A stretch of DNA of 64,000 bases from Planctomycetaceae bacterium (lineage in GTDB: Bacteria > Planctomycetota > Planctomycetia > Planctomycetales > Planctomycetaceae): contig JAHBXV010000006.1 in assembly GCA_019636285.1 (NCBI GenBank), positions 124,001-188,000 of the forward strand. Direction: 5' to 3'. Below are positions 2,680 through 38,138 of the stretch, piece after piece; position 1 is the first letter of the stretch, and each line of letters opens with the position of its first letter. Under the pieces are notes generated by a model, which worked only from the letters and a program-made list of their open reading frames with translations, made no database searches and was not told the DNA's origin. Both the position numbers and the translations under genes were made by a program.

Positions 2680-3030
2680 GTGTAAAGCCTTTTGATAGCT
2701 CTAAGACGGTGTGTTCCGATTCTCAGCGATTGCCTGTTTCATGCAGCAACTCTCGGCAATTCGCGTGGAACAAGCGTTTCACGATCACCGGCTCCATCGT
2801 TGCGGATACGGCTTGAGAAATCTTGAGTCAAAAGCAGGTGGACCGGCAATTTTTTCGCAAGTTGCTCTTCGCGCCGCGGAGCGGGTTTCGATATAGCTCC
2901 GCCCGTCGTGGCGCGGGAACCACGGCGATGCCTCGGGCCGGCGTCTCTGTCGCCCATGGGCCAGTCATTTCGAAAATTGCCTCTCTGCCATCTCCTCTCG
3001 ATCACGGATCCCTTCGGAAGGTTCAAAACC
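2680..3030. other. Divergent intergenic region
   Basis: About 350 bases separate the divergently read sulfatase and the small Gly-rich protein gene. It must hold both promoters, but no convincing -35/-10 pair or operator palindrome stands out. Short open frames here overlap each other and show no family resemblance. Confidence 0.5.
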
Positions 3031-4172: not shown

Positions 4173-4367
4173 TTACTTGCGGACGATGATCCACACAGCG
4201 TGGATAATCCCCGGGATGTACCCGAACAGCGTCAGCAGAATGTTCAGCCAGAAGTGCAGGCCCAGCCCCACCTCGAAGAAGACGCCGACGGGGGGCAGAA
4301 AAATGGCCAGGAGAATGCGGATCACATCACCCGTTGTTGAGTCTTTTGGTACCACATCGGTAGGCAT
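4173..4367 (-). CDS. Pmp3/YqaE-family small membrane protein
   Basis: A 64-residue protein of the Pmp3/YqaE family (PF01679): two membrane helices joined by a short loop. [20 protein letters not shown] and [20 protein letters not shown] match the family's two helices, including the PPVGV and GYIPGIIHA motifs. Family members are linked to salt and membrane-potential stress, but no mechanism is established. I chose the ATG at 4367 because GGAGACGAGACC places a Shine-Dalgarno GGAG eight bases upstream. An ATG five codons earlier (4382) overlaps that site. ExoD follows 30 bases downstream on the same strand. Confidence 0.9.
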
Positions 4368-4382
4368 GGTCTCGTCTCCCAT

Positions 4383-4733
4383 TCAAGATTCCCGAAGCCG
4401 ATGCCCGGCCCGAGGCGCGAGCCGACATCGCGTGACCGAAGAGTCAGAAACGCGAGGATCGTGCCAGACGGAGGCATTTCTGGGCACGAAGGCGCAGGTC
4501 TCTGTCTGGAAATGACTTACGGCGAGATATTTCTGTGTCCCCTCATGCAGTTCCGAATCCGAGACCGGTGTTCAGGACCAACAAGCTGGTCGCTGGGCGA
4601 TCAGTATCGGCCATTTTGCGAAGTGGGAGCCGCCTTGAGCCGCGTGGCTGAACCCGCGACGATGAAGGCGTGTCGAAACAACACCGACGCGCTCCCTCAG
4701 TGTGGTTGCCTTTTTTCCGTTCTCGGAGCCTCG
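4383..4733. other. Divergent intergenic region
   Basis: About 350 bases lie between the Pmp3 gene and the YjbQ-family gene. The plus-strand frame of the YjbQ gene stays open through this stretch, but the extension has no family resemblance and is rejected. No clear promoter, operator or repeat was found. Confidence 0.45.
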
Positions 4734-5156
<423 letters not shown>

Positions 5157-21725: not shown

Positions 21726-23453
21726 TCACCGCGGCTCGCTGGCAGGAGCGGTTGCGGAACCGGACGCATCGCTGACTGGCGTCAACGGCTTCAAATTGCG
21801 GAAGTTATCGCCCAGAACCAGATCGAAGCGGCCATCGCTGGCGCGGAGCGTGATCCGGTCGGAACCAATCGTTTCGACCGTGAATTGCCTTTCGGCGATG
21901 ACGAACGATTGGCCCTTCTGCAACTTCGTGATGTTGTCCGTCAGTCGATCGCGCAGCCATGCCTCGTCTTTCCCGTCGACCATCAGGCAGGCGATCAGGA
22001 ACGTCAGGGCGGCCGGGTCGTCCTGCACGCGAACGGTCAGTTGCAGTCGATCGGATTCCGACGGTGGGCCCTTGTCGCGCACCACCACGGCCAGCGAGTG
22101 TTCAGCCAGCGGTTCCGTTGTCGGAGGCATCCATTGGAGGCGGCCGGTTCGCGAGTCGATCGTCATGCCGGCCGGGGGCGTTCCCTCCAGCGAAAACGTC
22201 AGTTCATCGCGCGGCAGGTCGGGGTCTTCCACGGCCAGGACCACGTTCAATGGCTGCCCCGGATAGGCGGAAATCTGGTTGCCGGCGCGGAACCTGGGCG
22301 GATGATTGGGAAGCCGCACTTCCAGCGACAGCTTGGTCGTGGTGACCGGTTCTCCCCCTTTAGCTGGGAGTGCCGCCACTTCGACGGCGTATTTCTCGGT
22401 GGGAGTTCCCTCCTTCGGTTTCCAGGAGAGTTCACCCGACGTCTGATTCAGTGTCAGCCCTTCGGGAGGCTGGCCGACGAACTGGTAACGTGGTTCGCCA
22501 TCGGCGGGATCCCAGCCGGTGACACTCAGCTTGAGCGACCATTCCTTGCCGAGGACCACCGGATCTGCCGTGACGGGGGAGAACTTGGGATCGTAATTGA
22601 TGGGCGGGCGGGGTTTCACGAACGGACGAAGATCGGTCCACGCCGGCCAGGACGCGGCCAGCTTCGCAAGGTCATCGTCGGAGCGCGGCGGGGCATATTC
22701 GACGAGCGCTCCCTCGGCGTGAGGCATCGGGAAGCCGCCAATCGCCCGCGTGACCGTCCACTCCGTTTCCTGGCCAGCCGTGACGTCGACCCACTCGCCA
22801 TCGATTCGCACGCGAAACGGGGCCTCTTTTGGAAACCCTGGCGGAACCGACTTCAGCGACAGGCGGGTTTCCGTGAAATCCATGGTCTTTGCCAATTCCG
22901 CGGACGGAAAGAGCCGACTGCGGTCCGAAGCCCCCACCACGGAGACTCCTTCCGCCGTCAGGTTGACCTTCAATCGCGGTTCCCCATTGGCGGTGGGGCT
23001 TTCAATGGTCAGCCGGCTGATTCGCTGGAGGAGGGCCACTTCCTCGAAACGGGCCAGGAAGTTCGCCAACTGCTCGCGCGTGGCAGAACCTTGAATGGTG
23101 ACAGGAATGGTGACATAGGCATTTCCGCGAATGGATTTGCCATCCAGTTTGACACCCAGTTCCGTCCAGCCGGTGGCCTGCGCGATGTCGGTCAGCCACT
23201 GCGCGTAGACGCGCTGGGCGACCAGCGGATCGGGCGGCAGGCTCTGATCGCGCCAAGTCTTCAGCCGGGCGGTGGCCCGCATCAGTTCGATCTCGCGGTC
23301 TTCCTTGGCCGAAACCTCGGACTGAACGCTCTCTAGAGTTTCCCGGGCATCGCGCACCGGCTGCAAGAACGCGGCATCGAATCGAGGCGCGAGAAACCAG
23401 AGAGCGACAATCGCCCCCAGTCCGCCGGCCAGATACTTTTCGCGAGTTTGCAT
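21726..23453 (-). CDS. PilO/GspM-like inner-membrane protein with Ig-like domains
   Basis: A 575-residue protein, last in the secretion operon. It has a short N-terminal membrane helix (EKYLAGGLGAIVALWFLAPR) and a coiled-coil stretch (RDARETLESVQSEVSAKEDR). A ferredoxin-like region follows in the manner of PilO/GspM (VTIQGSATREQLANFLARFE). Beyond about residue 280 come two putative Ig/cadherin-like domains with the LTLNQTSGELSWKP and MTIDSRTGRLQWMPPTTEP signatures. PilO is normally only about 200 residues, so the C-terminal Ig-like region is an added module. It probably faces the periplasm and links the inner-membrane platform to other envelope parts. The PilM-PilN gene lies 58 bases upstream. 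Confidence 0.75.
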   Translation of the reverse strand: MQTREKYLAGGLGAIVALWFLAPRFDAAFLQPVRDARETLESVQSEVSAKEDREIELMRATARLKTWRDQSLPPDPLVAQRVYAQWLTDIAQATGWTELGVKLDGKSIRGNAYVTIPVTIQGSATREQLANFLARFEEVALLQRISRLTIESPTANGEPRLKVNLTAEGVSVVGASDRSRLFPSAELAKTMDFTETRLSLKSVPPGFPKEAPFRVRIDGEWVDVTAGQETEWTVTRAIGGFPMPHAEGALVEYAPPRSDDDLAKLAASWPAWTDLRPFVKPRPPINYDPKFSPVTADPVVLGKEWSLKLSVTGWDPADGEPRYQFVGQPPEGLTLNQTSGELSWKPKEGTPTEKYAVEVAALPAKGGEPVTTTKLSLEVRLPNHPPRFRAGNQISAYPGQPLNVVLAVEDPDLPRDELTFSLEGTPPAGMTIDSRTGRLQWMPPTTEPLAEHSLAVVVRDKGPPSESDRLQLTVRVQDDPAALTFLIACLMVDGKDEAWLRDRLTDNITKLQKGQSFVIAERQFTVETIGSDRITLRASDGRFDLVLGDNFRNLKPLTPVSDASGSATAPASEPR

Positions 23454-23511
23454 GAATCGGACTTCGTCAGGCTCTGGTTGAAATCGAGGTTACAGGGGTT
23501 CCGATGGGTCG

Positions 23512-24978
23512 TCACGGGGACTTCTTCGTCGCGGCAGGAGCCGCTGGCGCTTCGCGGAGTATCGCGATGTCGAGCGCCATCGCGACGGGATATTCGGGAT
23601 CGCGGGGATTGCCGCCAACGGCCTTGGGTTGCTGCCGCACTCCTTCCTGGTCGAGCGTGTGACCCAGTTCCGCGAAGTCCGATCGGTCTCGTGCCGCCAT
23701 GTCTCCCGTGATGCGGACGAGCGTCTCGTTCGTCCCCGGGCTCCAGTCGACGCGGGTCAGGTAAAGCCGATCGGTCTCGGGGAGGACAGTCACCAGTTTC
23801 TGCCAGGTCTCGGTCGGCGAGACATCGGTGGCTTCCCAGGCACGCAGCAATCCGTCGGCGTCGAAGGTCGGTTTTCCCTTATCGAGAAGCTCCTGGAGAT
23901 TGCGGGATTCGTCGCGCGCGGCGGCGATCTTCGCCTCCAATGACGACACCGATGCCCAACTCCACCAGGCCGTCAACAGCAGGAAGACGACGGCGGCAGC
24001 GGTCGCCATGGCCCAGCGGGGAATCTTCAGTTGCCGAGGGGGCTGCGGCCGGCGCGGGCGCAGGAAGTCGACTCCCGGCAGTCGGGGCATGCACTCCGCG
24101 AGCAGCATTCCCGCGAGCGCCACCGAACAGTCGGGAGCCTCGGACCAGCCGCGAATTTCCGAGGTCAGGTCAATCCGCGGATCGACCACCACGAGCCGGT
24201 CGCCATAGCGTTCGCGCAAGAGCGCCTGAATCTGGTCCGAGGTTTCAAGCTGCTCGGGGATATAAACGACGCGGTCGAGCTCCATGCCATGATGGACCTG
24301 CCCGAGCGCGACGGTTGCCCGCGTCAGTTCCGCCGTCAGCGGACGAGGATCGTTCGCCGCCGACAATCGCGTGGCGTGCGAGAAGACGACATGGCCTTCA
24401 TCAATGATGGTCAGTTCGAGCCGCGGACCGCGTTGATGGATGACGAGCGCCGGCTGAGCCGTGGTTCCCAGCACGCGGACGGCCGCCTCGGCCACGGCCG
24501 TGCTGGTGACCGCCAGGCCGACCCATTCCAGATTGGCCGGACCGAGCAGCGACCGGCACTCAATCAGCCGGGCCGCATCGATCGTGAAGGCCAGCACGCG
24601 CTTGGCGCTCACCGCCGCGTCTTCCGGAACGGGCAGATAGTCGAGCGTGATGGCATCGCCCGGAAGGCCCGCTTTCGTCGCCGCTTGCAGGCGGACGATT
24701 TCGGGAAGCTCCCAGGCGGGAACATCGGGCACGTCGAGCAGCCGCGTCACCGCCAGCGCGCGGGGGGCCAGCACCAGCGTTCGCCGCGTGGTGATGCCCG
24801 CGGCTTGCAGCCGTTCCCGCAGCTTTTCTCCCCATTCCATGGCGGCGGTCGGGGAATCCACGGTGACCGGACGGTCGACGACGACGCTCTTCACCAGTTG
24901 CACGCCGTCCTTGCCCACGCGGGCATCGACGGCAGTCAACTGGTCCGGTTCCCAGAGAATGGCGAGGCAGTCGGTCAT
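23512..24978 (-). CDS. PilM-PilN-like fusion (GspL-like) assembly protein
   Basis: A 488-residue protein. The first two thirds are a PilM-like actin-fold ATPase domain (VRLQAATKAGLPGDAITLDY, VVTSTAVAEA-type helices, ECMPRLPGVDFLRPRRPQPP at its end). The last third has a membrane helix (WAMATAAAVVFLLLTAWWSW) followed by a coiled coil and a ferredoxin-like domain, as in PilN. The same layout defines GspL in type II secretion. The start ATG at 24978 was chosen because upstream codons are low in family resemblance. It follows GspK after a 187-base gap containing a palindromic repeat and precedes the PilO-like gene. This is probably the cytoplasmic anchor of the platform. Confidence 0.85.
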   Translation of the reverse strand: MTDCLAILWEPDQLTAVDARVGKDGVQLVKSVVVDRPVTVDSPTAAMEWGEKLRERLQAAGITTRRTLVLAPRALAVTRLLDVPDVPAWELPEIVRLQAATKAGLPGDAITLDYLPVPEDAAVSAKRVLAFTIDAARLIECRSLLGPANLEWVGLAVTSTAVAEAAVRVLGTTAQPALVIHQRGPRLELTIIDEGHVVFSHATRLSAANDPRPLTAELTRATVALGQVHHGMELDRVVYIPEQLETSDQIQALLRERYGDRLVVVDPRIDLTSEIRGWSEAPDCSVALAGMLLAECMPRLPGVDFLRPRRPQPPRQLKIPRWAMATAAAVVFLLLTAWWSWASVSSLEAKIAAARDESRNLQELLDKGKPTFDADGLLRAWEATDVSPTETWQKLVTVLPETDRLYLTRVDWSPGTNETLVRITGDMAARDRSDFAELGHTLDQEGVRQQPKAVGGNPRDPEYPVAMALDIAILREAPAAPAATKKSP

Positions 24979-25094
24979 GGACGGTCGGCACCTTCGGGTT
25001 CTTGGTCGGGCCCGTTCAATATCACTGGCTGGCGAAGGGCTGCAAAGCTCTAACTCCGCGTATCGCCTCGGGAATCGCGTTTTTTCCGCAAACA

Positions 25095-25152
25095 CTAGCC
25101 CGAAGCGTCAGCGAGGGAGCAACGTACAGCCCTCGCTGACGCTTCGGGTTAG
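25095..25152. repeat. GAAGCGTCAGCGAGGG palindromic element (copy 1)
   Basis: A 19-base arm CCCGAAGCGTCAGCGAGGG (25099-25117) is perfectly inverted at 25130-25148, with CTAG- and TTAG-type flanks. It lies between the gspK-like and PilM-PilN-like genes inside the secretion operon, on a transcript read right to left. A second copy with the same arms is at 59017-59076. Confidence 0.92.
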
Positions 25153-25165
25153 TGAATCATCCGGC

Positions 25166-26815
25166 TCAGGGGCCGGATTGTCCGATTAATTCGTGCAATC
25201 GATATCCCGAGCCGAGGTGGGACAGGTCGCGGCGAAAGGTGACGGCCGGCGGTTGCACGCTCGCGTTGACGATTGCTTCCAACCGGACGAGCGGCCCGCG
25301 ACTCCCGGAATGGCCGATCGCCGTCGCGCGGTACACGTCGCCTCGCGCCGTCAGGTATTTGTCGAGCTTGCGGAGCGTGGCCACGTCGGTCAGCCCCTCG
25401 GTCAACAGCCAGCCGGTCGTCGCGCGGCTGAGCAACTGCTGTTCAGACAGACCGTCCGGCCCTGCCGCCCACTGCGCCCCGACGATCGAGTTGGCGAGGG
25501 CCTCGTCCATTTCCGGCAGGCCCAGCAGCGTTTCCAGTTTGGCCTGATTGACGTTAACTCGGCCAATGATTGTCGTCTTCGTCGAGACCGACAGCGTGTC
25601 GAACAGGGTGACCAGGGACTCGGCGAAGTCGCCATTGCTGGAGTTCCAGGGGCTCTTCAGCGTGGTGCTGGACCCGTCCTTGGCCACTTCCACTTCGGCG
25701 TCGACCAGTTCGTACAGGGAGGTCAGACGCACCGGTCCGCCCGTCGACAGGTCCATGCCGCCGCGCGTCACCGTTCCTGCCTGACCGCGAGCCATCTGGC
25801 GGGCAATTCCTTCGGCGAATTGTTGCAGGGCGTTGTCAGTCTCGTTATCGCCGGTCGTCGCGACCGCGGCCCCGTCGGTGACTTCGACATTCACCGCCCC
25901 TTCCATGCGATACGCGACGATAAAGTCGGCGTATTCCTCGCCCAGCGTCTCGCTCAACTGATCGTAGAGCTCCGTGAGAATCGATTGATTGACGTCAATC
26001 TTCGCTCCCCCGTCGCTTCGCAGATTCGTTTCGCAACTTTCGACCGTCAGGTACGCATCCCAGCCCAGTTGCAGGACGCCGTCGCCGTTGTCCACCGGCA
26101 GCGAAACCTCGCCATCGTCTTCGTTGGGGTCGAGCAATCCGTTGCGGTTGGCGTCCTCCCCGTAAAGAAGTTGCGGCGTGACTCCGGTCACCAGCAGCAG
26201 TTCATCGAGCGATTCGAGATTGCCGTTTCGCGGCGCGTAGGGGGGCGTCTGGCCCTGGTACTCGATCGATTCGGCTCCATAAGGCCGCCGCTGATCGTCC
26301 GCGTCGATCCAGTCGAGAATGGAGTCCGCCAGCGATTCCGTCATGCCGGGAAGCGACATGAGGAGAGTCCGTTCCTGGTCTTCGTCCAGACCCAGCGCGG
26401 CGATCGCGTTCAGGTTCAGCTTGGACGATTCGTCGACGAGGCCGTAGCGCAGGCCCCGAGGTTGCTGGGCCGAACCGAGCGGCGCCACGACCGTGAAGTA
26501 TGTCTGGGAATTCGCCGTCGACCCAGGTTGGACCAACACGCTCTGAAACAGGGCCGGGTTGTGATACAGGTTTTCTTCGCCCGGCGCGAGCCGGTTCCCC
26601 AATTGCGAGGCCACGTACTCAAGTGCCGATTCCGCCGCCGCCCGCGTCTGCACCTCGCGCCCGGCGAGGCTGACCGCTTCCGTCTCCGCGATCATGAACT
26701 CGGAGAACGTATAGGCCGAGAGCGTGAGGATCACCAGCACGATCAGCACGATGATCAGCGCGCTGCCCGAGCGCGGACGATTGCTCTCCGGTGTTCGTGC
26801 CTGACGTCGTGTCAT
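25166..26815 (-). CDS. gspK: GspK-like minor pseudopilin
   Basis: A 549-residue pseudopilin of the GspK family, the largest minor pseudopilin, which caps the pseudopilus tip. The N-terminal class III-like signal SGSALIIVLIVLVILTLSAY lacks the usual Glu at +5, as is normal for GspK. The globular part has two helix-hairpin-like repeats (MSLPGMTESLADSILDWIDA and LLGLPEMDEALANSIVGAQW) and calcium-type loops (DANRNGLLDPNEDDGE). It is longer than GspK of gammaproteobacteria (about 320). The gene overlaps gspJ by four bases (ATGA), so the two are translationally coupled. Confidence 0.9.
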   Translation of the reverse strand: MTRRQARTPESNRPRSGSALIIVLIVLVILTLSAYTFSEFMIAETEAVSLAGREVQTRAAAESALEYVASQLGNRLAPGEENLYHNPALFQSVLVQPGSTANSQTYFTVVAPLGSAQQPRGLRYGLVDESSKLNLNAIAALGLDEDQERTLLMSLPGMTESLADSILDWIDADDQRRPYGAESIEYQGQTPPYAPRNGNLESLDELLLVTGVTPQLLYGEDANRNGLLDPNEDDGEVSLPVDNGDGVLQLGWDAYLTVESCETNLRSDGGAKIDVNQSILTELYDQLSETLGEEYADFIVAYRMEGAVNVEVTDGAAVATTGDNETDNALQQFAEGIARQMARGQAGTVTRGGMDLSTGGPVRLTSLYELVDAEVEVAKDGSSTTLKSPWNSSNGDFAESLVTLFDTLSVSTKTTIIGRVNVNQAKLETLLGLPEMDEALANSIVGAQWAAGPDGLSEQQLLSRATTGWLLTEGLTDVATLRKLDKYLTARGDVYRATAIGHSGSRGPLVRLEAIVNASVQPPAVTFRRDLSHLGSGYRLHELIGQSGP

Positions 26816-28185
26816 CGCCGGCCTCCTCCGCCACCGCCGCGCGGACCGCCGCCGCCGCCGCTCGGAGGAAGCGAAATCCCTGGCGGAAGCTGGAATCCCG
26901 GCGGAAGCTGAAAGCCGGGAGGAAGTTGAAATCCGGGCGGCAACTGAAACCCAGGGGGAAGCTGGAATCCCGGCGGAAGCCCTCCGGGCGGACCCCCGGA
27001 GGGAGGATTATTTCCTCCGCCAGACGGGGGACGTCCCGAGGGAGGGCGGCCCGATGGCGGCCGACCGCCACCCTGGTCGGGGCCGCCGCCTTGCGGGCGC
27101 CCGTTGCCATCGGTTCCAAATCCACCGGCACCATCGCCTCCGCCAAATCCCGTCCCATCGCCGAAGGCCCGCCGACCCGATTGTCCCGTCCCGCCGTCGG
27201 TCCCATCGCCCGACGTCCCATCCGACATGGTTTCGTCTTCGGTGAGCGCCCCCGCGGAACTTTCAGTGACCGCAACGGGCGTGATCGGAATCGCGATGAC
27301 TGCCCGGGCCACTTGCAGCGGGGCCGCGGGTGCCGTCGACAAGGCGGCCCAACCGGACGAGGCGGCCGGACCGCTTTCGGCGTCATCCAGAAAACCCAGC
27401 GAAACTTCCACCGCCTTGGGAAGCTGCCCGTAAGAGACCGAGTCCCATTCGTTGTACCAGGCTTGCCCGTCGAAGTAGCGGAACTGGAGACTGCCGATTT
27501 CCGGAGCCAACAGTCGCGTCGCGGCAGTCACCGTGGTCGTTCCCCCATAGTCCATCGCCAGACGATCGCCCTGCTGAACCGCCAGCCCGGCGATCCCGCC
27601 CAGCGACTGCGTCCCGGTCATCGGCTCCGAGATTTCGCCCGGCGTGGCGAGAAAATAGGTCACGGCGACCTGGTCGCTGGCGGGCCCGGTCCCGCTGAAC
27701 ATCGGCTCGTAGCTCAGTTGTCGCGACGGTCGCGTGATGTGCAGCGTCAGGCGATCGGCCGTCCCGATCAGGCCGGCAGACATTGCCGCCGAGGTCGCCG
27801 CCGGGGTCGTCGAGCCTCCCGTCGTGCCGCTGTCCCCGGTCTCGGTTTCCGTATCTGCTGCGTAGGTGACCGTCGAACCCTCGTCGGCAGCGGCGCCGTC
27901 GGTTGAAGCGAGTTCGACTTCCGGCGTGCGGAAGACAATCGATTGCGCATCGAGCCGGATCTGCCTGAGAAGCGCCCGCGACAACTGAGCCCGCTCGACG
28001 CGAGCCCGCCCCAGCGACGAAAACTTCCAATACAATTCCAGCGACGCGTAAACCGCCGCGATGAGCAGCAGCGTCAAACCCAGGGCGATGAAGACCTCGA
28101 ACAGCGTGAACGCCGCCCGCTCGCGCGACGCCTCGCGTTCCCGGGGGGCTCCCATTTTTTGAAAGACGCGGGGGGAAGGGCTCAC
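26812..28185 (-). CDS. gspJ: GspJ-like pseudopilin with Gly/Pro-rich C-terminal tail
   Basis: A 457-residue GspJ-like minor pseudopilin. The pilin signal ERAAFTLFEVFIALGLTLLL has Ala in place of the usual Gly before the cleavage site (AFTLFE), which is tolerated by some peptidases. The first 230 residues are ordinary GspJ. The rest is an unusual tail: about 45 residues rich in Thr/Gly/Asp, then Gly/Pro/Arg blocks, then six tandem LPPGFQ units and a terminal GGGGGPRGGGGGGRR. Such tails are not found in standard GspJ. The tail could be an intrinsically disordered linker that reaches out of the pseudopilus. The start overlaps the gspI stop by four bases, and the stop overlaps the gspK start. Confidence 0.85.
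   Translation of the reverse strand: MSPSPRVFQKMGAPREREASRERAAFTLFEVFIALGLTLLLIAAVYASLELYWKFSSLGRARVERAQLSRALLRQIRLDAQSIVFRTPEVELASTDGAAADEGSTVTYAADTETETGDSGTTGGSTTPAATSAAMSAGLIGTADRLTLHITRPSRQLSYEPMFSGTGPASDQVAVTYFLATPGEISEPMTGTQSLGGIAGLAVQQGDRLAMDYGGTTTVTAATRLLAPEIGSLQFRYFDGQAWYNEWDSVSYGQLPKAVEVSLGFLDDAESGPAASSGWAALSTAPAAPLQVARAVIAIPITPVAVTESSAGALTEDETMSDGTSGDGTDGGTGQSGRRAFGDGTGFGGGDGAGGFGTDGNGRPQGGGPDQGGGRPPSGRPPSGRPPSGGGNNPPSGGPPGGLPPGFQLPPGFQLPPGFQLPPGFQLPPGFQLPPGISLPPSGGGGGPRGGGGGGRR
26869..26985. repeat. Tandem 18-base repeats encoding LPPGFQ units
   Basis: About six imperfect 18-base repeats in the gspJ-like coding sequence, read on the minus strand as LPPGFQ. The copies differ at third codon positions, which suggests selection on the peptide. 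Confidence 0.8.
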
Positions 28186-28631
28186 AGTCCCAGCTCCTGC
28201 ATGATGGAGGATGAACCCGTGGCGGCGGCCGCCGCGTCTTGCATGGCCACCGGATCGCGAATGATACGGGTCAGGGAAAACGATTCGTTCAATGCCATCG
28301 CGGGGACGGCGCGTTCCAGCGTCACCGTCACGACCAGGAGGTCCGGTTGCGTTCCCGGCTCGACCGTCGCCAGCCAGTTCCAGCCCGGGGCATCGAGCGA
28401 TGCCTGGGCCGACGTTGATTGCAGCGGATAAACCCCGGTCGCCAGTTCGTCCATCCGCGATTCCGCGAGGGCGACGGCCTCTCCCAGAAGCTGTGCCCGC
28501 ATCGCCGCGCGGGTTCCCACCGTCACGATCTGGCCGATCGCGGCGACGCCCCCCAGAAAGATCGCGAGCGCCAGGACCACCTCGAGGAGGGTGATCCCCT
28601 TGCGATGTCGATGCGAAGCGGGTGTCCTCAT
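28182..28631 (-). CDS. gspI: GspI-like minor pseudopilin
   Basis: A 149-residue minor pseudopilin. The N-terminal KGITLLEVVLALAIFLGGVA is a prepilin signal with cleavage after Gly (G/ITLLE) and Glu at +5. The rest (LLGEAVALAESRMDELATGV) matches the GspI type. The ATG at 28631 overlaps the gspH stop (ATGA) and supports coupled translation. A longer upstream frame starting near 28727 runs inside the gspH gene in another frame and lacks the signal. GspI is known to form the tip complex with GspJ and GspK in type II systems. Confidence 0.88.
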   Translation of the reverse strand: MRTPASHRHRKGITLLEVVLALAIFLGGVAAIGQIVTVGTRAAMRAQLLGEAVALAESRMDELATGVYPLQSTSAQASLDAPGWNWLATVEPGTQPDLLVVTVTLERAVPAMALNESFSLTRIIRDPVAMQDAAAAATGSSSIMQELGL

Positions 28632-29257
28632 CGCCGCTCCCTTCGTGCGATCGGGTCGACGGTGATGGCCGAGGTCAGGTCGCGGACGCTCAGGCGGACG
28701 ACGCGGCGGGACGAATCGTGGACCCACACCTCGCCGCCGCTAGAACTGCCGTCCGGAAAGAACCGAATCGCCGGAGCCCAGCCGACATCCCGGACATTGA
28801 AGTGAGCGTCGGTGAAGAGATTCGCCCACTCCTCGCCCAGTTTCTCGACGACGACGGGTTCGGTCATTCGCAGGCCATCGGCCACATCGCCAAAGCCCAT
28901 CTCGGCTCCCAGTTCGCCGGAGACAACCGGTATGATCGACGAAGGAGGCTGCGCGGCGGTCGGCGCGCTCTCGCCCGGGATCTGGCTGCCGAGATCGGGA
29001 CGCTCTTCCGGCAGAATCACGAATTTCTGGCCGTTAGGCTCGTGGCGAAACTGGTAGATCAAGCCCGTCTCGATCGCCTTCAGGCGGCAGCGGTCCAGTT
29101 CGCTCCGCACGATCTGCACGTTGCGATTCAGGTCATGATCTTTCAGGTAACGCATGGCGGCCGGCCACGTCAAACCGGCGAGGAGCGCCAGGACGGCGAC
29201 CACGAGGATCACCTCCAGGAGCGTCATCCCGCGCCGGCTTGCGAGCCGAGTGTTCAT
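28628..29257 (-). CDS. gspH: GspH-like minor pseudopilin
   Basis: A 209-residue pseudopilin. The signal SRRGMTLLEVILVVAVLALL has cleavage after Gly (G/MTLLE) and Glu at +5. The following long helix (AAMRYLKDHDLNRNVQIVRS) and the C-terminal beta-rich domain (AIRFFPDGSSSGGEVWVHDS) are typical of GspH and of FimT-like minor pilins. It lies between gspG and gspI in the usual order of type II operons, which favours GspH over FimT. The stop overlaps the gspI start. Confidence 0.85.
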   Translation of the reverse strand: MNTRLASRRGMTLLEVILVVAVLALLAGLTWPAAMRYLKDHDLNRNVQIVRSELDRCRLKAIETGLIYQFRHEPNGQKFVILPEERPDLGSQIPGESAPTAAQPPSSIIPVVSGELGAEMGFGDVADGLRMTEPVVVEKLGEEWANLFTDAHFNVRDVGWAPAIRFFPDGSSSGGEVWVHDSSRRVVRLSVRDLTSAITVDPIARRERR

Positions 29258-29288
29258 GACAGCGCCGCCTCAATTCATCATTCCAGCA

Positions 29289-29744
29289 TCAGATACTGCC
29301 GTCGGCCCAGTTCGAGATATCGTCCCCGCCGCCATTGTCGTTCTTCTGGTCCGGACCCGACGACCAGATCGCCGGCTTCGTCGTCTGCGCCTTCGAGTTC
29401 GGATACTCGTAGTAGAACGGCTGGCCCCAGGCGTCGGTCGGGATTTTCTCCAGGTAGGGTTCGAGCGGCTTGCCGTCGGTTCCCACCGGGTTCATCAGCA
29501 GGTTGAGTGAATCCTGCCCGCCTACGGGAAACTCGGCATTGTGATCGACGGCGTACATCTTGAGCGCCTGTTCCAGGCCCTTGATGCTGGCCTTCGTCGC
29601 CCCAATGTTGGCTTGCCGTTGCGACCCGAGCAGCCGCGGCACGACCATGGCCGCGAGGACGCCAATGATGGCCAGCACGATCAGGAGTTCGAGCAGCGTG
29701 AAGCCGCGACGACGGTTTCGATTTGAATTTCGCAAGGTCCGCAT
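29289..29744 (-). CDS. gspG: GspG-like major pseudopilin
   Basis: A 151-residue major pseudopilin. The signal RRRGFTLLELLIVLAIIGVL is a textbook prepilin site (G/FTLLE). The body holds the GspG-specific pattern: ALKMYAVDHNAEFPVGGQDS, then a loop with DAWGQPFYYEYPNSK, and Asp/Asn-rich calcium-site residues toward the C terminus (GPDQKNDNGGGDDISNW). This is the unit that builds the pseudopilus fibre. ATG at 29744 was chosen as it is the first Met before the signal with a basic leader; an earlier in-frame start would add 29 residues of non-family sequence. Confidence 0.95.
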   Translation of the reverse strand: MRTLRNSNRNRRRGFTLLELLIVLAIIGVLAAMVVPRLLGSQRQANIGATKASIKGLEQALKMYAVDHNAEFPVGGQDSLNLLMNPVGTDGKPLEPYLEKIPTDAWGQPFYYEYPNSKAQTTKPAIWSSGPDQKNDNGGGDDISNWADGSI

Positions 29745-29827
29745 GGCAATTCCTGGAGAGACGGTCAATTTCGCGAGGCAAGGTCTTGAGAATACGTGTT
29801 CAGAATCAACGGGCGACACACAGGCGG

Positions 29828-31039
29828 TCAACCAGCAAGGCTTGAGATTTGCAAAATAGGCAACAACAGCGCGATCGCCACGAACAGGACGATGGCGGCG
29901 AGAATCATCAACAGAATCGGCTCGAGCATCCGTACCACGAGTTCGAGTTCACGATGCGTCCGTCGTTCCAGATTCTCACTGATATTAACTAACACCTCTT
30001 CCAGATTGTTGGCTTCCTCGCCCACGGAAATCATTTCCACGATTTCGTCGGGAAACTGCTTGCTCGCCGCCAGCGGCCGCGCGAGCGATTTCCCCGCCGA
30101 AATATTGTCGGACGCATCGGCGATCGCCTGCGTGAGCACCCGGTTTCCCGTCGCATCCTTGGCGATGCGCAGCGAGGGGAGAATCGGGACGCCGTTGGAC
30201 AGCAGCGTTCCCAGCACACGGCAGAACCGGGCGATCGCGAGGCTCTTCACGATGCGGCCGATTCCGTACGCCCGCAGCCGGAACTGGTCCATCCGCAGCT
30301 TGCCTTCGTCGGTGTTCAACCACCACCGCGCGGCCAGCACGGCCGCGATCATCGCCGCCGCAATGAGAATCCAGTAGGTCTGGGCGGCACGGCTCATCGA
30401 CAGCAGCATCGTTGTCGCGGCCGGCAAATCACCTTGTTCCTTCTGCTTTTTGAAGATCTCCTCGAATCTGGGGACGAACCAGACCAGGAGGACCGACAGC
30501 ACCAGACCACCGGTTCCCAGAAGGAACATCGGGTAGATCATTGCCCCGACGACGCGGCCCTTGAGCTCTTCCGAATGTTCGGTGAAGACGGCGACCCGTT
30601 TGAGAACATCCTCCAGGAAGCCCCCTTCTTCACCAGCCCGCACCATGCTGATGACGAGATCGCCAAAGACGTCCTTGTGGTAGGACATCGCGATATTCAG
30701 CCGCATCCCGTCCGACACTTTTTCGCGGACGTCCTGCAAAATGCCGCGAACGACCGGCGTTCCCGCCTGTTTGCCCAGCAGTTCGAGTGACCGCAGCAGC
30801 GGCACGCCGGATTTCAGCAGGTCTCCGAGTTGTGCATACAGGGTCGCGAGTTGTCGCTGACTCACCCGACGACCGCCGAACGAAAGCAGCGGGCGATTCG
30901 CTTCGACCGCGTCGACTTTCACCGGAAACAACTGCCGGCCGGCCAGCAGCGCGAGCGCATCCTGATTGCTCGCGGCCGAGATGACCCCTGTCACCTGCCG
31001 TCCCGTCAGTTCCTTCGCGATGTATTGAAAGTCGGGCAT
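29828..31039 (-). CDS. gspF: GspF/PilC-like inner-membrane platform protein
   Basis: A 403-residue polytopic protein with the two GspF domains. The first (LATLYAQLGDLLKSGVPLLR to SMVRAGEEGGFLEDVLKRVA) and the second (RFCRVLGTLLSNGVPILPSL to ISVGEEANNLEEVLVNISEN) are repeated halves of the same four-helix bundle. Three membrane segments are present, including GAMIYPMFLLGTGGLVLSVL and the C-terminal EPILLMILAAIVLFVAIALL. GspF links the ATPase to the pseudopilin-loading platform. ATG at 31039 (MPDFQYIAKELTG) is the family start. The region upstream contains a repeat element and no GspC or prepilin peptidase gene. Confidence 0.95.
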   Translation of the reverse strand: MPDFQYIAKELTGRQVTGVISAASNQDALALLAGRQLFPVKVDAVEANRPLLSFGGRRVSQRQLATLYAQLGDLLKSGVPLLRSLELLGKQAGTPVVRGILQDVREKVSDGMRLNIAMSYHKDVFGDLVISMVRAGEEGGFLEDVLKRVAVFTEHSEELKGRVVGAMIYPMFLLGTGGLVLSVLLVWFVPRFEEIFKKQKEQGDLPAATTMLLSMSRAAQTYWILIAAAMIAAVLAARWWLNTDEGKLRMDQFRLRAYGIGRIVKSLAIARFCRVLGTLLSNGVPILPSLRIAKDATGNRVLTQAIADASDNISAGKSLARPLAASKQFPDEIVEMISVGEEANNLEEVLVNISENLERRTHRELELVVRMLEPILLMILAAIVLFVAIALLLPILQISSLAG

Positions 31040-31388
31040 GTTTGAGCGGAAAGCTATTGGCGGAAAGCGGAGAGCCGGAAATAGTGAGTTTTGGTGATTG
31101 TTCTTGCTGGTTGCTGGTGGCTGGCTGCTTCTAATCTTTGGTTGTGTGCCACTGGCTCCGCCAGTGCATCGAGTCATGGTCCAACAACTTAAAATCTAAC
31201 ACAACCTCTGTGTCATGAAGTGTTTGCCCGGTGTTCCGCAGGTTTCTGGCAGGCACAACCGGTTGTGTTAGGGTTTCTAAGGCACACTGGCAAAGCCAGT
31301 GGCACACGAAACTGCGGAAAACGGTAACTGTCGCCTCTCGTAGTTCTTCTTGCTCGTTGCTGGAAGCTGGCGGCTGGCCGCTCCTCTT
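31040..31388. other. Intergenic region with palindrome and nested inverted repeat
   Basis: About 350 bases between the gspF and gspE genes, within the operon. It is mostly filled by the GTGTGCCAC element (31144-31307) and by G/C/T-rich low-complexity stretches (TTGCTGGTTGCTGGTGGCTG near 31104 and a similar one near 31352). No open frame with a recognisable start was found. Confidence 0.6.
31144..31307. repeat. Intergenic palindromic element, GTGTGCCAC family (copy 4, with insertion)
   Basis: The left arm is GTGTGC plus CACTGGCTCCGCCAGTG (31144-31166) and the right arm is CACTGGCAAAGCCAGTG plus GCACAC (31285-31307). The spacer is enlarged to about 120 bases and contains its own perfect 11-base inverted repeat, CTAACACAACC at 31196 and GGTTGTGTTAG at 31261. 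Confidence 0.9.
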
Positions 31389-33065
31389 TTAGCTATCATC
31401 GCCACGGGTAATTCGTAGCACTTCGTCCAGTGTCGTATCGCCCCGGCGGGCTTTCAGGTAGCCCGATTGGCGGAGCGACGTCATGCCATGTCTCAGGGCG
31501 TAATCGCGAATCTGACCGCTGCTGGCTCGTTCCACGCACAAATGGCGGATGGCCGCATCATTCTTCAGCAGTTCAAAAATCCCCGATCGACCGGAATAGC
31601 CGACTTCACGACAAGCCCGGCAGCCAACCGGTCGCCACAGGGTTTCGGGGACCGGAGACAGATCGGGTGGCAGATCGTCGGCAGCGGGCGTGTAGACCTG
31701 ACGGCACGAGGGGCAGAGTCGTCGTACCAGCCGCTGGGCCAGAACTCCCTCGACGGTGCTCGCCACCAGATACGGCTCGACGCCCATGTCGACCAACCGG
31801 GTAAACGCCCCCGGAGCATCGTTCGTATGCAGCGTGCTGAACACCAGGTGGCCGGTCAGCGACGCCTGAATGGCGCTCGTGGCCGTTTCACCATCTCGAA
31901 TTTCCCCAATCAGGACGATGTCGGGGTCGTGCCGCAGAATGCTCCGCAGCCCGGCCGCGAACGTCAGGCCAATCTTGCTGTGAACCTGAATCTGGCTGAT
32001 GCCGTCGAGATGGTATTCGACCGGGTCTTCGACGGTGATGATCTTGGTTTCCGGGCTCTTAATCTCCGCGAGCGCGCTGTAGAGCGTCGTGGTCTTGCCG
32101 CTCCCGGTCGGGCCCGTCACCAGCACAATGCCGTGCGGCAGCGAGATCAGTTCATGGAACTGGTGGAAGACATCATCGGGGAAGCCCGCCCCCTTCAGGT
32201 TGAACGTCATCCGCTGCTTGTCGAGCAGACGCAGCACCACCCCTTCGCCATGCAGCATGGGGATGATCGACACACGGACGTCGATGTCGCGCCCCTGGAC
32301 CCGCACGTTGATGCGCCCGTCCTGCGGCAGCCGCTTCTCGGCGATATTCAGCTTCGCCATGATCTTGAGACGCGTCACGATCGCCGAGGCAAACTGATGA
32401 ACCTCCGCCGGCAGCGGCTGTATGCGGAGGATGCCGTCGACGCGGAAGCGGATCGTGAGGCCGCGCTCGCGCGGTTCGATGTGAACGTCGCTCGACCGCT
32501 GCTCAAGGGCTTCGACGAGCAGTTCGTTCACGAGGCGAATGACCGACGGTGCCTGGGCCGACTCGGCGAGCTCGCCCGCCTCTCCCGTCAGCCCCTCGAT
32601 GGCCAGTTCGTCTTCGCCCCGCTGGGCGACCAACTGGTTGATCGTGTCGCCGCCGACCCCCAGGTGCTTCTTGATGTGCGAGACGATATCTTCGCCGCAC
32701 GCCAGCACGGTTTCGATGGGCGACTGCGCGATCGATGCGAACTCGTCGAGCCCTTCGAGTTCAAACGGGTCGGCGGTGGCGATCGTCAGTAAGCCATCGT
32801 GCCGGGAAATCGGCAACAGGCGATGTCGGAAAACAGCCGATGGCGGGAACTCCAGCAGCAAGTCCGGGTCGATGGTGACCTGATCGAGCCGGACGAACTT
32901 CTGGCCCAGCGCTTCCGCCAGCATGCGGAGCGAATCTTCTTCCGAAAGGACACCATCATCGACGAGAATCTGGTCGACCCGCCGTCCGTTCGAGCGGGCG
33001 CGAGCCGACTCGACCTGCGACGAATTCGCCAGACCGTGTTCCAGAATCAGCGACGCAATTTCCAT
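31389..33065 (-). CDS. gspE: GspE/PilB-family assembly ATPase
   Basis: A 558-residue type II/IV secretion ATPase. The N-terminal MshEN-like domain occupies residues 1-140. Walker A is [11 protein letters not shown] (318-328), the Asp box is [12 protein letters not shown] (345-354), Walker B is [11 protein letters not shown] (381-391) and the His box is FSTLHTNDA (409-417). A tetracysteine zinc site, CPSC (451-454) and CRAC (482-485), follows in the usual place. The protein is therefore expected to be an active hexameric motor. The ATG at 33065 begins the MshEN-like domain. It lies directly downstream of the secretin-like gene on the same strand. Confidence 0.95.
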
Positions 33066-33312
33066 ATCGATTCGTTTCTCGCCCCAACCTCACGCGGTTG
33101 CGGCGGCTTCCTGTATGGCGGGCACGCGGGTGGCGTGTGGGTGTGTCCAGGGTGTCGGGTGATTGCTTTCCGGGGGGATGACTAATAATACGGGGTCGGC
33201 AAGGGGTGGGTGGCCAGAGGTTGATGCGACACAATCACACGGACGTCGTCGACGTCGAGGTTTCAAACTCCAAAACTCACTTCACGCGGCTCGCGTCATG
33301 GATCTTACCGGT

Positions 33313-36300
33313 TTAGCGTCCTCGACGGCCTCCTCCATCACGTGACGAGTCGCCTCCACCACCTGGAAATCCACCGCCAGGGAAACCACCGCCCGGAAAG
33401 CCGCGGAAACCGCCGCCTCCCGGACCGCCTCCGCCACCTTCCATTCGCTCGCGCATTCGCTGCTCGAAGAACCGCCGCATGTCGTCGGGGTTCGGCCCGC
33501 CGCTGGGTGCAGCGGGGGCTCCCGAACTGCTGGAACTGCTGCTTGATGACGTATCCGAGGAACGCGAGGACGATCCCGACGAACGAGTCGTGCTGATCTT
33601 CACGCGCGGCATTAGCGAGCCCAGCGCGTTCTGCAACACCGACGAGCTGACATTGTCGAGCGGCATCACGCGAACGGTTCGCCGGGCTTCCAGCGCCGCC
33701 TTGTCGATCGACTCGACGAGTGCCGTCACTTCGCGAAACGTGCCATCGTTGGCCGAAACGATCAGGTGATTGGTTCGCTCGTCTTTACTGAGCGTCATCC
33801 GCAACTCGGGCTGTTGGGCCTGGCGGTCACCTCCGCGTCCGCCGCCCCCCATCAAGGCCGCCAGGGCCTGTGCCCCTTGTCGGGCCTGGTTGTTCTGGTT
33901 GGGATCCTGCAGAAAGTCCTGGTAGACGTCCTTGACGATCGTGTAAACCTCGTTGACGTCGGCATGGTTGACGGGAATCATCCTCGGCACGCGATCCCGC
34001 AACGAGTCGGGCCACTCGGAAGCGTCGAGCACTTTCAGCATTTCTTCGACGTCGCGAACCTTTTCGCTGGGGCCGGAGACGAACAGGGCATTCAGCCGCG
34101 GCTCGGGAATAATCTTCAGCGACAGTGAAGTCGACAGGTTGTCGAGGCCCGCCATGTCGACCAGGCTGCCGCCAAAGTTCGACAGGCTCCCCATCATGCC
34201 GGAACTCGCCGACGAACTCCGGCTGGCCACCGTGACGTCGGGAATCAGTTGCGCGAGGACTGCGGCGACTTCCGTCGCGTCGGCAGACTGGAGCGTGAAG
34301 ACCGTCCACGTCGTGCGCGGCGGAACGACTCGCATCGCGCTGGCCAGCATTTCTTCCAACTGGTCGAGAGCCTTCGGATCCGAAGACCCGATTACCAGTT
34401 CGTCGCCCACGATCGTCATGGTGATACTGCTCTGCGCGGCCGGCTGAGCGGGGGCTTTGGCGTCGGTCGTCGGCTCGTTCGGGTCAACCGCCTGGTCTTT
34501 ATCGTCCGCGTTCCGACCCTTTTCGTCAGCAGCTTGCTGCAATGTGGCTGGCAGAACCCGGAGTTCGCCGGGGCGGGCCGGGCGGCTTGTGCTTGGTTCA
34601 GACGGAGCCGCGTCGTCTTCCGCTTGCGGGCGCGGTCCGCGATCGGCCGGTGCGCGAACGCCGCCGACGGGGCCACGGTCGCGGGGCAGAATCACTCGGA
34701 TCGGAACGTCGGACGAAGCGCCCCACATCCGCTGAATCACCTGCATCAGTTCCTGCGGATCGCGTCCACTCAGCGGAATGCTGCGGACGGGGCCCCGGTC
34801 TTGTCCCGACCGCTGGCCGCTGCCATCTTCTCCCAGTTGAGCCATCAGGGTTTTGACCTGGGCCAGTTGATCCTGGGTTCCGCGAATCATGACCTGGCGA
34901 CTCAGGAGGTCGGGTTCAATCGTCGGGGCATTGGTTCCGTCGGCGATGAACATCGATCGCAGCGTCGAAGCCGCCGAGACGGGGTCCATGCGGGACAGGG
35001 GAATCACCATGACCTGCTTGGCTCCGCCCACGCCATCCAGTTGCTGAATCAGCAGTTGGGCTTCCTGGTGCTGCGAGGCCGTCCCCATGATATGCACGCG
35101 GCCGTTGCGGCCTTCTTCGTTGACCACGACGCCCGGCATCAGCGCGTCCAGCGTCTTCGCGATCTCGCGGGCATCGCCCGTGGTGATGGCATACGACGCG
35201 AGGTACGGCTTACCATCTCCGCCCGAGGCGCCGTCGCCCGGCACATCAATGGTTTGCAGAGTGTCGCGAATGATCGCGTGTTCGGCGGCCGTCGCCGTCA
35301 CCAGCAGTTGGCTGGTCCGGGTATCCGCTGTAATCACCGAACTGCTCAGCCCCGCCACTACGCCGGGAGCGGACGGCGTTCGCGATCGCTCATTGGCGGC
35401 CGACACATTCGGGGCCACGCTCGACATCCCCAGCAGACTGCGAACAATCTGTTCGGCCTCCAGCGGGGCGACGTTCTTGAGCGGGTAAGCCGAGAATGTT
35501 CGATCCGAAGGACCACTGCGGGCCGCGATCGATTTCAGCATCGCGTCGATGCGACGCAGGTTGCTGCCAATGTCGGTCACCAGCAGCGAGTTGGTGCTCG
35601 CCAGCCCGACCACGCTCCCCTGCGGACCTTTGATCTGGTCGACCTCGGCGGCCACAGCCGCCACGTCGACCCCGACCAGCGGGAAGACAACGGTCAGCAA
35701 TTCATTCTTGCCGCGCTTCGGCAGTTCTTCCGGTGTCACATTGGGGACGATATTCGGAGGAATGGGTTTGTCGATATTGAGGCAGACGAGGAAATCGTCG
35801 CGGCGCACCAGGATATAGCCCTTGGGAAGCAGATACCCGTTCAGCACGTCGAGAGCTTCCATCGGCGTGTACGATCGCTGATCGAAGTAACTGAATGTCC
35901 CCGGCGGGACATCGTTCATGTCGAGCGAGAGACCCGCGGCGGCGGCGAACATCTTGAGGACGTCGCTCCACGGGGCGTACTTGAAGTTGAACGACATCGA
36001 TTCGGCCGTCTTCGGCGATGCTCCGGGGGCCAGGCCCGGCCGTTGTCCGTCAGCGGGCGATGCGGGGGCGCCATCTCCCCTGGAAACAAAGGACATCACA
36101 GGCTGTGCCCCGGCCGGAACTTCCTCGACGCGAATCACGCGCGGCACTGGCGGTGCCAGCGGCGCTCCGGGGACCATGCCCGGAAAACCGAACGGAGGGC
36201 CAGCCGCGGCCTGCATTGGGGTGCCCAGCTTGCCAGTCCATTGGGTCTTCTGATCGGGCGTGAGCAGGGCGAGGAACTTGGCATCCCACTCCGCGGTCGC

Positions 36301-36897
36301 CTTGTTCCGGTCTTCCTCGGACATGCGGAACATGTCGCGACGGGCCTGGGAGTATTCTTCCGACAGCGCGGTGATCTGCTTTTTCTGTTCGTCGGTCAGC
36401 TTCAGGTCGTTAGCCACCGAGGGACGGAGCAGGGCTCGAACCCCCGAGCGCTGCAAACTGATCTGCTGCAGACGCGTGAATTGTGAATCCTGCAGCAACT
36501 GCTTCACAGCCGTCTCGGCGTCGGCCGCATTCTTCTCCATGATCGCCTGGATCTGGGCCTGCACGGCCGCACGGGCGGCTTCATCTTCGCCAGCCTCGCG
36601 CAACTGTCCGAAAAGCTGACCCATTTCCTCGCGGCTGTCCGGCCGGTTGGTCTGAAGCTCGAGCAGTTTGGCTTTCTGCTCGTCGGTCAGGCCGAGTTCC
36701 GTCTGAAAATTGGGGTCCGCCAGATCTCGCAAGAGGTCGGCCGGCATGCCGGCGAAACCGCCCCCGAATCCTCCGCCGAACCCCCCGCCGCCAAACCCGC
36801 CGCCGCCTCCCCGCCCACCACGCTGAGCTTCGGCGAGTGTACAGAAAGACACAATTGTCAGTGCAAGAAGAACTCGCACGGGAATCGATCGAATCAT
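33313..36897 (-). CDS. Secretin N-domain protein lacking a recognisable barrel domain
   Basis: A 1194-residue exported protein. A signal peptide (MIRSIPVRVLLALTIVSFCT) is followed by a glycine-rich run. Two LT-D/E-Q helical regions come next (ELGLTDEQKAKLLELQTNRP, DLKLTDEQKKQITALSEEYS). A secretin N0/STN-like part follows near residues 310-375 (MSFNFKYAPWSDVLKMFAAA). At least four N1-type modules are then visible (VFPLVGVDVAAVAAEVDQIK, AYPLKNVAPLEAEQIVRSLL, VIPLSRMDPVSAASTLRSMF, VFTLQSADATEVAAVLAQLI). The protein ends in Ser-rich and Gly-rich low-complexity. The secretin beta-barrel C-domain (PF00263, VPGLGDIP-like motif) was not found. It heads the gspE-K operon and should lie in the periplasm. 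It is probably involved in substrate or platform contact. Confidence 0.82.
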   Translation of the reverse strand: MIRSIPVRVLLALTIVSFCTLAEAQRGGRGGGGGFGGGGFGGGFGGGFAGMPADLLRDLADPNFQTELGLTDEQKAKLLELQTNRPDSREEMGQLFGQLREAGEDEAARAAVQAQIQAIMEKNAADAETAVKQLLQDSQFTRLQQISLQRSGVRALLRPSVANDLKLTDEQKKQITALSEEYSQARRDMFRMSEEDRNKATAEWDAKFLALLTPDQKTQWTGKLGTPMQAAAGPPFGFPGMVPGAPLAPPVPRVIRVEEVPAGAQPVMSFVSRGDGAPASPADGQRPGLAPGASPKTAESMSFNFKYAPWSDVLKMFAAAAGLSLDMNDVPPGTFSYFDQRSYTPMEALDVLNGYLLPKGYILVRRDDFLVCLNIDKPIPPNIVPNVTPEELPKRGKNELLTVVFPLVGVDVAAVAAEVDQIKGPQGSVVGLASTNSLLVTDIGSNLRRIDAMLKSIAARSGPSDRTFSAYPLKNVAPLEAEQIVRSLLGMSSVAPNVSAANERSRTPSAPGVVAGLSSSVITADTRTSQLLVTATAAEHAIIRDTLQTIDVPGDGASGGDGKPYLASYAITTGDAREIAKTLDALMPGVVVNEEGRNGRVHIMGTASQHQEAQLLIQQLDGVGGAKQVMVIPLSRMDPVSAASTLRSMFIADGTNAPTIEPDLLSRQVMIRGTQDQLAQVKTLMAQLGEDGSGQRSGQDRGPVRSIPLSGRDPQELMQVIQRMWGASSDVPIRVILPRDRGPVGGVRAPADRGPRPQAEDDAAPSEPSTSRPARPGELRVLPATLQQAADEKGRNADDKDQAVDPNEPTTDAKAPAQPAAQSSITMTIVGDELVIGSSDPKALDQLEEMLASAMRVVPPRTTWTVFTLQSADATEVAAVLAQLIPDVTVASRSSSASSGMMGSLSNFGGSLVDMAGLDNLSTSLSLKIIPEPRLNALFVSGPSEKVRDVEEMLKVLDASEWPDSLRDRVPRMIPVNHADVNEVYTIVKDVYQDFLQDPNQNNQARQGAQALAALMGGGGRGGDRQAQQPELRMTLSKDERTNHLIVSANDGTFREVTALVESIDKAALEARRTVRVMPLDNVSSSVLQNALGSLMPRVKISTTRSSGSSSRSSDTSSSSSSSSSGAPAAPSGGPNPDDMRRFFEQRMRERMEGGGGGPGGGGFRGFPGGGFPGGGFPGGGGDSSRDGGGRRGR

Positions 36898-37178: not shown

Positions 37179-38138
37179 ATGACACGGCTTGTGACGGCTG
37201 GAACGGTTCTCGCAATGATCGTGGTCGCGACGAGCAGCCTGGCGGTGCCGGCACCCGTTTCCGCCCAGCCACCAGGTTTTCGGACGCCGTCGCCCGAGGG
37301 GATGTTCCGGTTCATGGATCGGAATCAGGACGGAACGCTCGATGCGGGGGAGTTGGAACGCATTCAGGGGCCGATCCGCGACTCCCTGGAGCGCGCCGGG
37401 GTCGATTTCCGCCGCGGAGTCAGTCAGTCGCGGTTCATGGAGGTCATGCCCCGCGCGATGGAGCAGATGCGCGGGTCATCGGGCGATTCCCGAGGCGGTC
37501 GGGATGAACGGCGCGGCTCCGACCGCGATCGGTCGCGTGATGTCACGCCGACCCCCGCCGCGCCGGCGGCTCCACCCCCTCCGAAGGTCGTTGTTCGCGT
37601 TCCCAAACCTCCCGTGACCATCGCGCTCGCACCGACTTATGGCGATTGGGATAGCAACGGCGACGGTCAGATCTCCTTTTCCGAATGGCGGTTGCGAACA
37701 CAGGGGAGCATCACTCAGTTCGATGAACTCGATTCCAATCACGACGGATTCCTGACGCCTCGCGAACTTCAGGGTTCCGGGACGAATGTCACCCTGACCG
37801 CGACCGGGACTCCCTCCACCGTGACGGGCTCGCCCGCCGTCGGAGCCGTGGCTGTTGGATCGGGCTCCCCGGCGAGCGGAACGAACGCCGCCACCTCGAC
37901 TTCCGGTTCATCCGGCACGACTTCGAATTCGGCGACTTCCGGTAGCGGAGGCATCGACGCACGCACTCGCTCGGCTTTTCAATCGCTGGACGTCAATCGC
38001 GACGGGCAGATCGACCCGGATGAGTGGAAACGCTCGCGATCGCTGCGCCCGCTGTTCGAAAAGATCGGTTTCGATCTGACAACGCCCGTGAAACTGGAAG
38101 CCTTCGCCGAAGGGTATGCCCGGGCGCTGAAATCGTAG
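37179..38138 (+). CDS. Secreted EF-hand protein
   Basis: A 319-residue exported protein with signal peptide (MTRLVTAGTVLAMIVVATSS). Four EF-hand-type loops with DxNxDG patterns are visible: DRNQDGTLDAGEL, DSNGDGQISFSEW, DSNHDGFLTPREL and DVNRDGQIDPDEW. They are separated by a Pro-rich and Thr/Ser/Gly-rich linker. These loops bind calcium and occur in many planctomycete secreted proteins of unknown function. The gene is divergent from the secretin-like gene and stands alone at its start. Confidence 0.85.
   Translation: MTRLVTAGTVLAMIVVATSSLAVPAPVSAQPPGFRTPSPEGMFRFMDRNQDGTLDAGELERIQGPIRDSLERAGVDFRRGVSQSRFMEVMPRAMEQMRGSSGDSRGGRDERRGSDRDRSRDVTPTPAAPAAPPPPKVVVRVPKPPVTIALAPTYGDWDSNGDGQISFSEWRLRTQGSITQFDELDSNHDGFLTPRELQGSGTNVTLTATGTPSTVTGSPAVGAVAVGSGSPASGTNAATSTSGSSGTTSNSATSGSGGIDARTRSAFQSLDVNRDGQIDPDEWKRSRSLRPLFEKIGFDLTTPVKLEAFAEGYARALKS

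Follow-up and report, generated by a model that had tools for sequence, protein, structure and literature searches.

Where is the outer-membrane channel of a type II secretion system (T2SS) encoded, if its operon starts with a secretin-like protein that has no barrel? This question is raised by a locus in the window, the whole stretch of 64,000 nucleotides of planctomycete DNA that was analysed. Ten minus-strand genes, read from 36897 to 21726, make up one operon with the order Dn, GspE, GspF, GspG, GspH, GspI, GspJ, GspK, PilM/N-like and PilO/GspM-like (Table 1). Dn is the name used here for the barrel-less secretin-N protein encoded by the first gene. The first-pass annotation had read the same order (D-like, E to K, PilMN-like, PilO-like), and the family matches agree with it. 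GspG scored above its strict NCBIfam equivalog cut-off while GspE and GspF stayed below theirs, and the matches of GspH, GspI and GspJ were all below the curated cut-offs. Genes were called with a codon-weighted caller; naive longest-ORF calling lost real genes because of high-GC shadow ORFs. The GspG ORF encodes 180 aa and the true start is probably inside it. An overlapping ORF in another frame (29278-29781) was considered as G and rejected, as it has no family match.

Table 1. Positions and supporting matches of the genes and protein parts described in the text. Window positions are given without prefix; G000 is the genome of the window and C13 another contig of it.
Feature	Position	Strand	Length (aa)	Evidence or remark
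Dn, barrel-less secretin-N protein	33313-36897	-	1194	
GspE-like ATPase	31389-33065	-	558	PF00437 8.1e-135; TIGR02533 603 bits (cut-off 630)
GspF-like platform protein	29828-31177	-	449	PF00482 3e-57; TIGR02120 352 bits (cut-off 424)
GspG major pseudopilin	29289-29831	-		TIGR01710 103.9 bits (cut-off 88.85); T2SSG 2.8e-16
GspH-like minor pseudopilin	28628-29257	-		N_methyl 6.9e-5; XpsH 1e-10
GspI-like minor pseudopilin	28182-28727	-		TIGR01707 3e-10
GspJ-like minor pseudopilin	26812-28185	-		T2SSJ 8.3e-5
GspK-like minor pseudopilin	25166-26815	-	549	T2SSK_1st 5.5e-18; NF037980 2.4e-26
PilM/PilN-like (GspL-type) protein	23512-25095	-	527	TIGR01175 6.6e-5; position conserved in relatives
PilO/GspM-like protein	21726-23453	-	575	GspM/XpsM model E 0.0041
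Divergent neighbour, probably outside the operon	37179-38138	+		calcium-binding protein model NF041410, E 1.4e-12, 47.9 bits (cut-off 120)
Dn, signal peptide	N-terminus			
Dn, Spy/CpxP-like helical domain (LTXXQ)	residues 53-224			above Pfam cut-off
Dn, N0 domain	residues 301-375			AF2 model
Dn, seven N-modules	residues 400-1071			AF2 model; beta-alpha-beta-beta-alpha each
Dn, half module	residues about 1074-1102			AF2 model
Dn, C-terminal tail	last ~95 residues			AF2 model; mostly low-confidence, Ser/Gly-rich, one short helix
PilO/GspM-like protein, TM helix				
PilO/GspM-like protein, PilO fold	residues 73-173			
PilO/GspM-like protein, two cadherin/Ig-like domains	residues 284-478			
PilO/GspM-like protein, C-terminal beta domain	residues 484-546			
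GspD	G000:C13:27160-31170	-	1336	six Secretin_N stretches and barrel (PF00263 4e-44); TIGR02517 357 bits (cut-off 351)
Lipoprotein-like gene directly behind GspD	L009:8424-9164	-	246	
ORF with PF00263 match in two stretches	L013:14378-19264 (G000:C45)	+	1628	as if an insert were in the barrel
Short ORFs with partial barrel matches	G000, C48; C67		308; 235	
Dn-GspD fusions	L088-L090		2175-2328	
Dn-GspD fusions	L091, L092		3240-3269	
Dn-GspD fusions, giant single ORFs	L110:1308-16529; L111:5065-18936; L112:2727-16601; L113:2096-14737	+; -; +; +	4213-5073	start of the L110 ORF probably too early
Barrel-less proteins, window's family	L093:11771-19843; L094:6502-15663; L095:6742-14553	-; -; -	2603-3053	27-40 N-modules
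Second barrel-less paralogue	L115:8428-11433; L116:503-3562	+; -	about 1000	
Third Dn-like ORF	L106/L122 (G032:C3)		496	beside gspF

The barrel-less first protein

Profile and structure analyses of Dn gave a consistent picture. In the Pfam search, Secretin_N (PF03958) was matched in six stretches with an E value of 9.7e-52, and the barrel family PF00263 gave no match at E<=1. The T2SS GspD model TIGR02517 covered only the N part of the protein, with 149.6 bits against a cut-off of 351. An AF2 model built with 20 orthologues, which has a mean pLDDT of 67 and values mostly of 75-93 within the modules, shows no barrel either; the domain boundaries in Table 1 are our reading of its secondary structure. 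Compared with the PDB, the model matched PulD (6hcg) with Z 13.3 over residues 302-623 (289 aligned), the rmsd of 21.9 belonging to a match that spans several domains of the model, and its N0 matched the GspD N0 of 4jtm with Z 10.3, rmsd 2.5 and 80 aligned residues. Invariant residues were found across the 20 orthologues, the C-terminal half module included. Dn thus has the N0 and Secretin_N parts of a secretin and no barrel, as the first-pass annotation had claimed. Because the barrel is absent, Dn alone is not a secretin; it is a secretin periplasmic chain.

GspD on another contig and in relatives

The search for a separate barrel in the window's genome gave nine PF00263 matches. Three of them are Tad-type secretins with a T2SS-T3SS_pil_N domain, and a full GspD, placed above the T2SS equivalog cut-off, is encoded on C13. 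This GspD is orthologous to a gene near the end of the operon in 11 relatives. A search of the surrounding 19 kb turned up no relative of E or F from the operon, and in the window's genome this GspD is not linked to the operon. Of the two ways out proposed in the first-pass annotation, another secretin encoded elsewhere is therefore the one that is borne out. The other, a barrel-free system with another mode of working, is unsupported, as the annotation itself had named an ordinary GspD gene serving the same operon as the finding that would speak against it; with the orthologous GspD a barrel-free mechanism becomes unnecessary. The lipoprotein-like protein encoded directly behind GspD belongs to no Pfam family and its place is conserved in relatives; it is a candidate pilotin or outer-membrane partner. 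Other barrel matches of the same genome, on C45, C48 and C67, are listed in Table 1.

The distribution of both chains was analysed in the window's genome and 39 relatives (40 genomes in all), using residues 296-1095 of Dn as query. Dn was matched in 35 of the 40. The C13 GspD has a close orthologue in each of the 25 genomes of the same family (25/25). Eleven relatives carry one locus with the order Dn-E-F-G-H-I-J-K-MN-O-GspD-lipoprotein (L068-L075, L117, L120, L104+L121), Dn being the first and GspD the second-last gene; some of these loci run into the end of a contig or stretch, so that their first or last gene is incomplete. In some relatives (G001, G004, G011), as in the window's genome, the GspD-lipoprotein pair is away from the operon.

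In other families the two parts are found in a single stop-free ORF with Dn-type N0 and modules at the start and a PF00263 barrel at the end. All these fusions (L088-L092, L110-L113) match PF00263 at E<1e-44 and have no stops. In the five shorter ones the GspD part corresponds to the split GspD from about residue 397-426 onwards, and therefore they have no second N0. The giant ORFs (L110-L113) come from two other families of the phylum, and a PilM/N-like gene is situated just upstream of the giant ORF in L110 and L112. One genome (G032) has adjacent Dn and GspD genes at one locus (L106) and a fusion at another (L091); a third Dn-like ORF is located beside gspF in the adjacent-gene locus. Further barrel-less proteins were also seen. 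Three very long ones belong to the window's family, and that of L095 adjoins its own E-F-G-H-I-J genes. A second, shorter barrel-less paralogue is present in many relatives and has no match in the window's genome; it lies near two type II/IV ATPase-like ORFs in L115 and near a pilin-like ORF in L116.

A module HMM was built from Dn and used to count the ring modules. Among the controls, E. coli GspD gave three modules and the Tad secretins, GspE and GspK gave none. Dn has seven modules and the C13 GspD five clear and two weak ones; the fusions have 9-12 and 27-29, and the ORFs of 4213-5073 aa have 44-47. PilQ of Thermus thermophilus has six rings, N0-N5, in a complex 350 A long that spans most of a wide periplasm (PMC5745081). 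By extrapolation, the stack of Dn and GspD would be longer than Thermus PilQ and the giants would be several times longer, if each module forms a ring, as we infer.

The Dn-GspD boundary and its possible readings

The boundary between the two genes appears to cut one ring domain, judged by sequence, since the first half of a module is found at the end of Dn and a second half in GspD. In the adjacent genes of L106 the end of the first protein corresponds to Secretin_N positions 2-25 (weak, E 0.11) and the second protein, after its signal peptide, opens with positions 33-65 (weak, E 0.011), so that in this one relative the halves are complementary. For the window's own pair the halves are clear only as family profiles and not in the two proteins singly: the Dn C-terminus aligned to module columns 2-30 of 90 (hhalign probability 83) and GspD residues ~444-478 to columns 51-85 (probability 89), with three control stretches at 0.1-0.2, while the single-sequence HMM scored the halves at about zero (-1 and -2 bits). 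The GspD of the window's family gave no recognisable first half module in cis (probability 0.5; the alignment is poor there). In L097/L099 the same GspD stretch looks more like a first half module. The two halves would complete each other in trans.

The observed domains, shared locus, fusions and module halves, along with their conservation, suggest that Dn and GspD are two chains of a single long secretin stack, and this is what we consider likely. The two chains are thought to work as one mainly because of the gene-fusion pattern. Dn would be the inner-membrane-proximal part of this two-chain secretin, exported to the periplasm, and its N0 and seven ring modules would stack coaxially under the separately encoded GspD. 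GspD would add five clear modules (up to seven with the weak ones) and the outer-membrane barrel. The chains would meet at one ring module cut in two, with the first half on Dn and a second half on GspD, and would assemble physically. The pseudopilus (G-K), driven by E via F, would work inside the long channel, and the N0 ring of Dn would face the GspL/GspM-like platform.

The GspD of the window's family has an N0 of its own, which forms a single clade with support 100/99 in an N0 tree (a tree of few columns and many open forks, of which only the GspD-N0 clade is used), and such a GspD might reach the inner membrane alone. Dn might then not share a channel with GspD but belong to this T2SS as a ring or scaffold of its own in the periplasm, where it would enclose or guide the pseudopilus or hold on to substrates via its Spy/CpxP-like domain. 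The several modules kept by this GspD next to its N0, the chaperone-like LTXXQ domain of Dn above the Pfam cut-off and the unlinked position of the two genes in the window's genome suit this arrangement. It is nevertheless unlikely, as the single-chain fusions of several families align the same modules with the barrel and have only one N0, and the adjacent genes of L106 possess complementary half modules.

The missing barrel and the low-complexity tail at the end of Dn could also be taken as signs of a decayed secretin that is being lost and replaced by the moved GspD. This is hardly credible and already contradicted by conservation: Dn is intact and conserved in 35 of the 40 genomes, residues are invariant in 20 orthologues up to the C-terminal half module, and a full GspD shares the locus in 11 genomes. 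An operon for a type IV pilus or another filament, with the long secretin as fibre exit, is suggested by the PilM/N- and PilO-like platform proteins and by the pilus-like fibres at planctomycete crateriform structures (PMC5394234). GspG above its equivalog cut-off, the presence of GspK, the lack of a PilT-like ATPase in the operon and the C13 GspD above the T2SS equivalog cut-off all argue against a filament, and we hold it to be distinctly unlikely.

Known systems and the inner-membrane platform

The N0 and N-module folds are like those of bacterial T2SS GspD (E. coli GspD; PulD, 6hcg, 4jtm), and E. coli gsp has the same gene order D-E-F-G-H-I-J-K. In contrast to these, two genes are present here instead of one, the barrel is on the other, unlinked protein, and seven modules plus five to seven replace three. 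A known machine is thus varied: its secretin has gained length through many ring modules and is encoded in two parts by separate genes. The nearest precedent for the split is GspD of the mitochondrial T2SS. There the barrel is on one protein and separate GspDN proteins carry a module or half of one (half in GspDN2 and GspDN3), and GspD and GspDN1 may interact according to yeast two-hybrid data (PMC8134430). The likeness is in the arrangement only, N-modules and barrel being on different proteins. Each mitochondrial GspDN is one module or half, whereas the Dn chain has N0 and seven and a half modules, and the mitochondrial system is eukaryotic, and no evidence links the two by direct descent. 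Thermus PilQ shares the extended periplasmic stack but is one chain of 757 residues, belongs to a type IV pilus/DNA uptake system and has far fewer modules.

T2SS-like genes were noted before in a planctomycete (PMC6906331). In the literature searched we found no previous account of planctomycete secretins that are split or giant, many journals being outside our reach. The planctomycete periplasm is enlarged and variable, and the outer membrane bears enigmatic crateriform structures; these are situated at contacts of the inner and outer membrane, some bear 12-nm fibres and they are unexplained (PMC5394234). Planctomycete secretins may form very long tubes that cross the periplasm with anything from a dozen to more than forty stacked rings, built in the window's family from two chains cut inside one ring module and in others from a single giant chain, and they could be part of these structures, though we regard this as doubtful and the link to the crateriform structures as speculation. 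The lengthened, split and fused secretins supply named genes for testing how a secretion machine bridges the planctomycete envelope. They also parallel, in bacteria, the split secretin known from the mitochondrial T2SS. Such systems would be missed or misread by annotation pipelines which look for PF00263 beside gspE.

GspC and uncertain GspL/M apart, the system looks like a T2SS in the sequence features tested, and protein secretion would be the function of the operon. PF11356 (GspC) was found nowhere in the window's genome, in line with the first-pass statement that there is no GspC; that statement is qualified by the last operon protein, whose C-terminal beta domain may be a GspC-HR/PilP equivalent by its position and topology. 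The PilO fold of this protein matched 2rjz with Z 12.6 and rmsd 2.2 over 98 aligned residues, and 16 orthologues retain the C-terminal domain, including those that lack Ig domains. The GspC-HR/PilP assignment stays a lead because the sequence tests (Pfam, PDB profile search, hhalign) were all non-significant, with E 0.15 for 2lnv and an hhalign probability of 5.7. Profile matches of the domain to designed Pizza proteins were rejected as a repeat artefact. The Foldseek rows for the whole protein were filled by cadherins and barely covered the HR fold. Pseudomonas putida has a known fusion of PilO and PilP, the latter a GspC-HR homologue (PMC3169554). The last operon protein resembles this fusion in that a PilO-like domain is combined with a beta domain at the C-terminus; it differs in the two Ig/cadherin-like domains in between and in a C-terminal domain that has no significant PilP or GspC sequence match. 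The absence of a prepilin peptidase from the operon, also stated earlier, holds, as no operon protein matched the family. Peptidase_A24 was matched at five places elsewhere in the genome, three of them strongly.
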